The position numbers and the translations under genes are program-made. Source: Bacteroidota bacterium (GTDB taxonomy: Bacteria; Bacteroidota; Bacteroidia; Bacteroidales; NBLH01). Taken from it: 64,000 nucleotides of DNA. This document shows positions 49,449 to 50,852 of this stretch, piece by piece. The stretch covers positions 1 through 64,000 of the forward strand of contig JANYKN010000116.1 of the NCBI GenBank assembly GCA_025361565.1. Reading direction: 5' to 3'. How positions within the stretch are numbered: position 1 is the first letter of the stretch; each line of letters starts with the position of its first letter. The notes under the pieces are model-generated. The model searched no databases. It had not been told where the DNA came from and saw only the letters and a list, made by a program, of their open reading frames with translations.

Positions 49449-50717
49449 CTATTTATTCGTTCTTCGTTTGTTAATTAAATCTTCAATAACATCGTCAATA
49501 ACTACCATGCCTTGTAAAACATCATATTCATCTACAACTGGAATTCCAAGCATGTTATATTTTGAAACAATCTCTGCAATTTCATCAATCCGCTGGTAAT
49601 CGTATAGGTTCACCGGAGATGGTTTCATAATTTGATTGATCCTTGTTTCAGGCAGGGAAATTACGATATCCCTCAATGAAAAAGTAGCAATTAATTCATC
49701 TTTTTCAGTAGTAACAAAGAGATTATACAAACTTGCTGCTTCAGGTTTTTTGCCCCTAAGTTCTTGAAGTACTTCTTCAACGGTTTTATTTTCATTGAAT
49801 GACAATATATCAGTTGACATGATGCTTCCAACAGAGTTGTCGGGATAATCAAGTAATTCCCGAACTTCCTGCGAAGTGTCTTCTTCCATTTCGTTAAGTA
49901 GTAGTTCTGCTTTATCGTCTTCCAATGCATCAAGGATATCGGCTACTTCATCAGCGGGCATTTTATCTAAAACATCAGCGGCTTTTTCAATGGAAAGGCT
50001 TTCGAGGATTTGAAGTTGTGTATCAGGTTCTAATTCTTCTAGTACATCTGCGGCTTTTTCTTCATCAAGTGCCATAAATATTTCAGCACTCGCTTTTCTG
50101 TCCAAATCTTCAATAATGTCAGCCAAATCCGAAGGATGAAGCGTTTGAAGCTTTGAGTAACTTTTTGAAAGTTTAATGTTAAGGTTTGAGAAATCAATTG
50201 CTTCCACATCTTCCCAAAGTATAAATTTGGATGGAATGTTACTTCCAAAAAGTGACAATATGGATTTTAGTGGTTTTGCTATGCCAATTCTACGCAAAAG
50301 CCCTTCAATTCCAATGTCAACCGCTACTGCAAAAGTACCATTTGCAATTGAAGCCAGACGTACATCGTTTACACGAACAAGCTTACGTCCATTAATATCT
50401 ACAATCTGTTTATCAAGAATATTTTCAGCCAGATAAAGGTCATTATCAATATGATGAGAAGATAATTCTATTAATTTCTCGCAAAAAACCTTTATTTTAT
50501 GTTTTACCTTTTCAATACGTAAACATTCAATAGAATAAAATGCTATTTTCTTTTTGCATTTAATCTTAATTCCATTAACCAGCGGACGCCCTAAAGTATG
50601 ATTTGATGAATCGGAATCGACCAATAAATCCTTAATAATACCAATATAATTTCCATTGGTATCGAATACTTTTTTTCCGATTACTCTGCTTAAATAAAAT
50701 GTGGTGAATGATGTCAT
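49449..50717 (-). CDS. Soluble MgtE_N/CBS-domain protein with PRC-barrel start
   Basis: About 422 residues from the ATG at 50717, which has a perfect Shine-Dalgarno, AGGGAGG, 5 bases upstream. The frame also opens at a GTG at 50723, but that overlaps the Shine-Dalgarno. The layout is two PRC-barrel-like segments (about 5-160), an MgtE N-terminal helical superhelix (about 175-290, with LHPSDLADIIEDLD and LDKMPADEVADILDALEDD repeats) and a CBS pair (about 300-420). MgtE channels use these same cytosolic domains to close at high Mg2+, but the transmembrane channel is absent here. It probably gates the NRAMP transporter encoded 17 bases downstream. Confidence 0.88.
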   Translation of the reverse strand: MTSFTTFYLSRVIGKKVFDTNGNYIGIIKDLLVDSDSSNHTLGRPLVNGIKIKCKKKIAFYSIECLRIEKVKHKIKVFCEKLIELSSHHIDNDLYLAENILDKQIVDINGRKLVRVNDVRLASIANGTFAVAVDIGIEGLLRRIGIAKPLKSILSLFGSNIPSKFILWEDVEAIDFSNLNIKLSKSYSKLQTLHPSDLADIIEDLDRKASAEIFMALDEEKAADVLEELEPDTQLQILESLSIEKAADVLDKMPADEVADILDALEDDKAELLLNEMEEDTSQEVRELLDYPDNSVGSIMSTDILSFNENKTVEEVLQELRGKKPEAASLYNLFVTTEKDELIATFSLRDIVISLPETRINQIMKPSPVNLYDYQRIDEIAEIVSKYNMLGIPVVDEYDVLQGMVVIDDVIEDLINKRRTNK

Positions 50718-50852
50718 ATGCACCTCCCTAATTTATGATATAGAAAGGAGTGCACAAAAGAGCAACTGTCTTGCTATATCAGGTTAATAATTAATATACC
50801 CGCCGGCCCTTCGTCCATCTTTTTGAATGATTTGGTTTGCACCGCAAAAGTA
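50718..50852 (-). promoter_or_regulatory. Structured leader with uORF, anti-Shine-Dalgarno and promoter -7 box
   Basis: On the minus strand a TACTTTTG -7 box (50852-50845) would start transcription near 50838; the -33 element is weak. The leader then has a 14-codon ORF (50818-50774). Its stop TAG is inside the 5' arm of a stem GATATAG/CTATATC (50780-50774 with 50743-50737). A small hairpin AGCAA/TTGCT follows (50775-50771 with 50765-50761). The segment GTGCACTCCTT (50755-50745) can pair with AGGGAGGTGCAT (50729-50718), which contains the Shine-Dalgarno, with one bulged G. This could hide the ribosome site, either as a hairpin or a pseudoknot. It matches neither the M-box nor the yybP-ykoY consensus as I know them. 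Confidence 0.5.
50774..50818 (-). CDS. Candidate 14-residue leader peptide (uORF)
   Basis: The frame ATG GAC GAA GGG CCG GCG GGT ATA TTA ATT ATT AAC CTG ATA TAG encodes MDEGPAGILIINLI. The acidic-plus-proline start resembles peptides reported to destabilise ribosomes at low Mg2+ (for example MgtL of enterobacteria). The stop codon lies in the leader's main stem, so a ribosome there would alter the folding that controls the downstream Shine-Dalgarno. The ORF has no strong Shine-Dalgarno of its own, which is normal in Bacteroidota. Confidence 0.4.
   Translation of the reverse strand: MDEGPAGILIINLI

Follow-up and report, generated by a model that had tools for sequence, protein, structure and literature searches.

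A conserved acidic-proline leader peptide and a predicted Shine-Dalgarno switch upstream of magnesium transporter genes in Bacteroidales

The stretch of DNA analysed here, positions 1 to 64,000 of contig JANYKN010000116.1 from a member of the Bacteroidales (hereafter the window), carries on its minus strand a short 5′ leader that probably acts as a cis-acting translational attenuator for Mg2+ uptake. Full translation of an upstream open reading frame (uORF) would close the gene behind it, and early loss of the ribosome at low Mg2+ would open it. Going beyond the initial annotation of this stretch, we found that the leader belongs to a family: 62 related leaders were collected, nearly all from Bacteroidales, and the genome that holds the window has a second copy, before corA (contig 149 of G000, ~372 kb away; uORF MDEGPYHKIELFTTV). 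Comparison across these leaders shows the uORF with its conserved head, two competing RNA pairings arranged around the uORF stop, and an association with Mg2+ transporter genes to be features of the family. That Mg2+ is the signal, that the ribosome drops off and which way control runs in cells are what we infer.

The initial annotation had described a Bacteroidota -7 box, a 14-codon uORF starting with Asp-Glu-Gly-Pro whose stop lies within a 7-bp stem, and a segment complementary to the Shine-Dalgarno (SD) sequence of the downstream gene. All of these elements are present where it had placed them, and the complementarity between the anti-SD segment and the SD, which includes one bulged G in the window, recurs in relatives. 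The leader is composed as follows.

50852-50715, minus strand: the whole leader.
50852-50845, minus strand: Bacteroidota -7 box TACTTTTG, 26 nt 5′ of the uORF ATG, read directly.
50818-50774, minus strand: uORF ATGGACGAAGGGCCGGCGGGTATATTAATTATTAACCTGATATAG, 14 codons plus TAG, with the product MDEGPAGILIINLI, read directly.
50780-50774, minus strand: 5′ competitor arm GATATAG, which includes the uORF stop and pairs with 50743-50737 (5′-arm swap test).
50753-50745, minus strand: anti-SD segment GCACTCCTT, which pairs with the SD in the predicted occluded fold (swap test).
50743-50737, minus strand: CTATATC, the 3′ partner of the 5′ arm, adjoining the anti-SD, with a perfect 7-bp pairing to GATATAG.
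50729-50720, minus strand: SD region AGGGAGGTGC, directly 5′ of the main ATG at 50717 and sequestered in the predicted occluded fold.

Relatives were sought by a protein-led and a motif-led route. The motif-free, protein-led route used orthologues of the PRC-MgtE_N-CBS protein encoded directly downstream, with an intact upstream region, from the same order and from Bacteroides luti. In all of them, an ATG-led uORF stands at the same place 3′ of a TnnnTTTG box (peptides MDEGPARKLIINLI, MDDGPARYQLLIKSQI, MDDLPANIQSLTSLHRRII, MDEGPAGLSPNITKLD, MDEGPIFFLIINPI, MDDDPARKYLINLI and MDEGPADIFSLLLT), and a class-wide profile search added one further leader (L243, uORF MDSDPANTNNLITCA). The motif-led route searched for the box, a spacer and MD-D/E-x-P across 393 genomes of the order, and then used tighter patterns. 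Its wide version returned many coding-frame matches, and the candidates taken from this search were chosen by eye; because these had been hand-picked, the association with transporters was recounted on unselected outputs only. A Mg2+ transport gene (PRC-MgtE_N/NRMT, CorA, MgtE or MgtA) follows in 24 of the 26 unselected cases that have a short uORF and a same-strand gene within 300 nt, and the remaining two are not leader-like. Many matches to a TTTG-CCGTT... pattern were set aside, as they lacked a short uORF followed by a gene.

According to Pfam, the genes behind the related leaders are PRC-MgtE_N/NRMT operons, CorA, MgtE, an MgtA-type P-type ATPase and lone NRMT. As for the position of the promoter, which had been singled out for checking, every one of the 52 leaders scanned has a TnnnTTTG box (TAnnTTTG in 96%) upstream of its uORF ATG, at a distance of 20-34 nt, mostly 24-28, and the element is a 5′ leader directly behind a promoter. 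A sigma70-type promoter scan of the window leader was dropped, the model not being applicable to Bacteroidota. The order is assigned as Bacteroidales on the strength of the named relatives Bacteroides luti and Mariniphaga; outside it, the leader was seen in one other family (f140, L108-L111). A 29-codon MDEGP uORF in a further family outside the order (L115, f148) has a different layout, running out of frame into the beginning of mgtE. On the minus strand of L092, an MDEGP leader precedes an OprB-family porin gene (1232-2611), and another leader in that genome stands before a PRC-MgtE_N gene (L093); the porin is possibly an outer-membrane route for Mg2+.

The uORF head reads M-(D/E)-(D/E)-x-P, that is, two acidic residues and Pro5, within the first codons of a short uORF. 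Position 2 is Asp in 55 of 57 leaders, position 3 is Asp or Glu in 57/57 and position 5 is Pro in 56/57, the latter two positions each using four codons, while position 4 is mostly Gly and the residues from 6 onward vary; these statistics are partly dictated by the DNA search patterns. The motif-free set is independent of them, and there at least two acidic residues occur at positions 2-4 in 16/16 leaders, with Pro5 in 15 and Pro6 in the other (heads MDEGP, MDDGP, MDDLP, MDDDP, MDSDP, MDDVP, MEEDP, MKDDP or MDDYHP). Codons 2-5 show synonymous changes as well as exchanges of Asp for Glu; in MEEDP, MKDDP and MDSDP the DNA has diverged with the acidic-proline character kept. The uORF head and the SD/anti-SD hairpin, on whose conservation the initial annotation had staked its proposal beforehand, are kept in relatives, and so is the competing upstream arm.

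We propose the following sequence of events. Transcription would start shortly before the uORF coding for Met-(Asp/Glu)-(Asp/Glu)-x-Pro. With ample Mg2+, ribosomes would reach the uORF stop, where the stopped ribosome would cover the 5′ arm; the anti-SD could then pair with the SD, leaving the transporter gene untranslated. With scarce Mg2+, the acidic-proline nascent chain would destabilise the ribosome (intrinsic ribosome destabilisation), which would leave or halt near codon 5. The 5′ arm would then remain free and base-pair with the hairpin on its anti-SD side, which would release the SD. Because the targets are Mg2+ transporters, the simplest reading is an MgtL-like sensor joined to an SD-sequestering platform.

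In erm-type drug-resistance and trp-type amino-acid attenuators, the position of the ribosome on a uORF likewise selects between two RNA folds. The signal here would differ from theirs, being the stability of the ribosome in low Mg2+, with the gene on after early failure. MgtL, which precedes mgtA in Enterobacteria, shares with the Bacteroidales leader a short acidic and proline-containing 5′ uORF before a Mg2+ transporter. It starts with alternating acidic and proline residues (EPDP), and ribosome loss refolds the RNA and turns mgtA on (PMC11282234); as a passage of that paper citing Chadani 2017 has it, the ribosome fails early at these N-terminal codons in low Mg2+. The Bacteroidales uORFs lack the EPDP motif, their head being M-D/E-D/E-x-P, and the phylum is a different one. 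Furthermore, MgtL works by Rho-dependent termination on a P-type ATPase target, whereas in the Bacteroidales leaders the predicted helix takes the SD and several transporter families are served. The initial suggestion of MgtL-type control is supported for the acidic-proline uORF before Mg2+ transporters; the step under control appears to be the initiation of translation and not termination of the MgtL type.

A similar layout is found in mgtQ of Salmonella, an 8-codon uORF before mgtB with Asp2 and Glu5, followed by alternative stem-loops, one of which holds the ribosome-binding site; its acidic residues are required for mgtB translation through these stem-loops, and control is translational (PMC8092293). 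Unlike mgtQ, which is intergenic between mgtC and mgtB, the Bacteroidales uORF lies in a 5′ leader behind a promoter; the latter also differs in its A-rich start region without an evident SD (leaders inspected) and in its nearly invariant Pro5. The principle is thus already known from MgtL and MgtQ, and the Bacteroidales family looks like a phylum-separate counterpart. On the sequence comparison, the leader family is real, conserved and regulatory, and is a Bacteroidales relative of the MgtL/MgtQ kind with a broader target set. We found no description of the family itself in the open-licence PMC papers, so its novelty is not proven.

M-box (ykoK) and mgtA riboswitches are also 5′ leaders of Mg2+ transport genes, and Mg2+ transporters are classic riboswitch targets, so that a Mg2+-binding riboswitch with an incidental ORF had to be considered. 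We regard it as highly improbable and set it aside: conservation lies in the codons of the peptide head and in the two helices of the switch, with no ligand core resembling an aptamer, and an Rfam search of the window and ten related loci at gathering and relaxed thresholds gave chance matches only (nqrA-II, 13.9 of 55 bits).

More serious, though still unlikely, is that the same attenuator senses acidic-proline pausing (relieved by EF-P or ABC-F) or the supply of prolyl-tRNA in place of Mg2+-dependent ribosome loss. Acidic residues with proline also cause EttA-dependent pausing (PMC11282234), and pausing as well as drop-off would leave the 5′ arm free. However, a single Pro codon is conserved in the uORF, unlike in amino-acid attenuators, and nearly every regulated gene codes for a Mg2+ transporter, which points to a Mg2+ signal. 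On the same two grounds a tRNA-Pro attenuator was set aside.

The folding of the leader agrees with a switch driven by ribosome position. We computed the cost of freeing the SD while the 5′ boundary of the available RNA was moved, mimicking a ribosome. Across 49 leaders, the mean cost is ~3.9 kcal/mol for the free leader, where the boundary is set 24 nt upstream of the uORF stop; it reaches 9.0-9.2 kcal/mol for boundaries at +12 to +18 from the stop and falls to ~2 kcal/mol once the boundary is past the anti-SD. The average rise is 5.17 kcal/mol, compared with -0.56 (standard deviation 0.29) in dinucleotide shuffles. The window leader behaves likewise in this calculation: placing a ribosome at the uORF stop takes its cost from 5.3 to 11.4 kcal/mol (occluded fold), a larger rise than in any of its 30 dinucleotide shuffles. 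Its plain folding energy is ordinary (z -0.39), but this z-score of the minimum energy is uninformative because two competing folds escape it. That ordinary energy would fit an origin of these features by chance, a reading of negligible probability that is refuted by the conservation, the transporter association, the shuffles and the swap tests.

In the swap tests, which only partly remove the relatedness among leaders, the arm of the OFF pairing gave a cost of 9.17 when own and 5.81 when swapped (P = 7e-8), and the arm of the ON pairing gave 3.83 when own and 8.02 when swapped (57 leaders, P = 1e-10). For 12 CorA/MgtE leaders, pairing of one and the same set of anti-SD columns reaches 95% with the 5′ arm CTGTAAGG and 94% with the SD side TGTAAGGAG, against 38-55% in slid controls; two-sided changes occur in both helices, in agreement with the covariation that the initial annotation had proposed to look for. 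Since the same columns pair with both, the 5′ arm in those 12 leaders is, by its pairing, an SD decoy.

In 53/53 leaders with a clear switch, a boundary set 24-30 nt from the uORF AUG, as if the ribosome had dropped off or stalled near codon 5, precedes the OFF interval and leaves the 5′ arm free; the stop+12 boundary falls inside the OFF interval in 47/53. Leaders found after the design of the test show the rise in three of four cases (L243, L254 and L257, not L262). By prediction and comparison, the position of the ribosome on the uORF selects between alternative folds. The opposite polarity, in which complete translation of the uORF would open the SD by translational coupling or by mgtQ-like activation, has a precedent in that mgtB expression in Salmonella needs mgtQ translation (PMC8092293). 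It is very unlikely here, as the calculated SD-freeing cost peaks when the leader is occluded to stop+12 to +18, and the uORF stop lies usually 45-75 nt from the main start, which is long for coupling.

We also considered that the switch acts on transcription, in addition or instead, with the fold controlling access to a Rho loading site in the manner of mgtL-mgtA, given that MgtL of E. coli uses the Rho route (PMC11282234). This seems quite unlikely to us: the competing helix occupies the SD in 53/57 leaders, and a scan of the window leader revealed no intrinsic-terminator-like site.

Several observations weigh against the attenuator as proposed. In the window, CTATATC adjoins the anti-SD bases without overlapping them, and the RNA may form a pseudoknot that holds both helices at once. 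Four leaders (L005, L089, L130 and L262) show no switch, and the PRC-MgtE_N gene of L239, found in the class-wide profile search, has no uORF leader and a promoter directly before its SD. When the most stable fold is predicted for the free leader, the anti-SD goes back to the 5′ arm in 22/53 leaders, and the window leader is not one of these 22; the ON state must therefore depend on folding during transcription or on an equilibrium between folds. Finally, the 5′ arm varies in its distance from the uORF stop about as much as in its distance from the start (standard deviation 9.2 nt for the stop and 7.6 nt for the start).

Taking the targets together, we lean towards a Bacteroidales-wide Mg2+ regulon in which the M-(D/E)-(D/E)-x-P nascent peptide would be the sensor and SD sequestration the readout, placed before NRMT, CorA, MgtE and MgtA, with a porin and small membrane proteins as possible further targets, and which would have arisen apart from MgtL. 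If so, Mg2+ sensing through the stability of the translating ribosome would be a principle present in another phylum and not an enteric oddity, and it would serve several unrelated transporter families (NRMT, CorA, MgtE and MgtA) at once. It could explain the control of Mg2+ uptake in many Bacteroidales, and the family supplies dozens of natural variants of a putative ribosome-destabilising peptide.

CorA and MgtE genes were surveyed by family and not by motif, accepting uORFs that had two or more acidic residues and a Pro among their early codons. Because this filter itself demanded acidic residues and Pro, the informative part for these leaders, which count among the 16 motif-free ones, is their clustering at ~-90 to -110 ahead of certain paralogues but not of others. 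The leader precedes all three CorA starting M-x-(K/R)-I-F-(K/R)-S/T-x-GG, and in this survey none of the CorA with an IETIKIGTLKW-like start has one. Four MgtE genes have the leader, with the heads MDDVP, MEEDP, MKDDP and MDEGP. The leader may thereby point out which CorA and MgtE paralogues are likely regulated importers. Between leader and corA, six loci (L076, L078, L079, L080, L089 and L094) have an ORF of 31-45 codons with hydrophobic or basic residues, and the predicted switch falls at the SD of this small ORF in five of them. It may encode a small membrane protein or serve as another regulatory ORF.

The MgtE_N and NRAMP genes that the initial annotation had placed behind the window leader were recovered by Pfam, and the NRAMP protein proved to be of the NRMT (magnesium) type.

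50717-49449, minus strand: PRC-barrel, MgtE_N and CBS protein of 422 aa without a channel domain (PF05239, PF03448, PF00571).
49431-48187, minus strand: NRMT-type NRAMP transporter of 414 aa (PF01566), with DAGG / TTIA at the metal site.

The best solved relative of the NRAMP protein is EleNRMT (7QIA, E 1.8e-107), followed by an MntH protein (E 4.3e-26). Aligned to 7QIA, it has DAGG and TTIA at the metal site, which fits the NRMT signature DxxG-TxxA/T (PMC8806188). On the strength of this match and motif, the operon is predicted to import Mg2+. The PRC-MgtE_N-CBS protein, with sensor domains and no channel, is perhaps a detached Mg2+ gate for NRMT. Six genomes of the same genus (G001-G006) gave no close match to its gene, and for this reason the operon may have been acquired, or often lost. 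NRMT is the next gene after PRC-MgtE_N in 14/14 loci with a readable neighbour.
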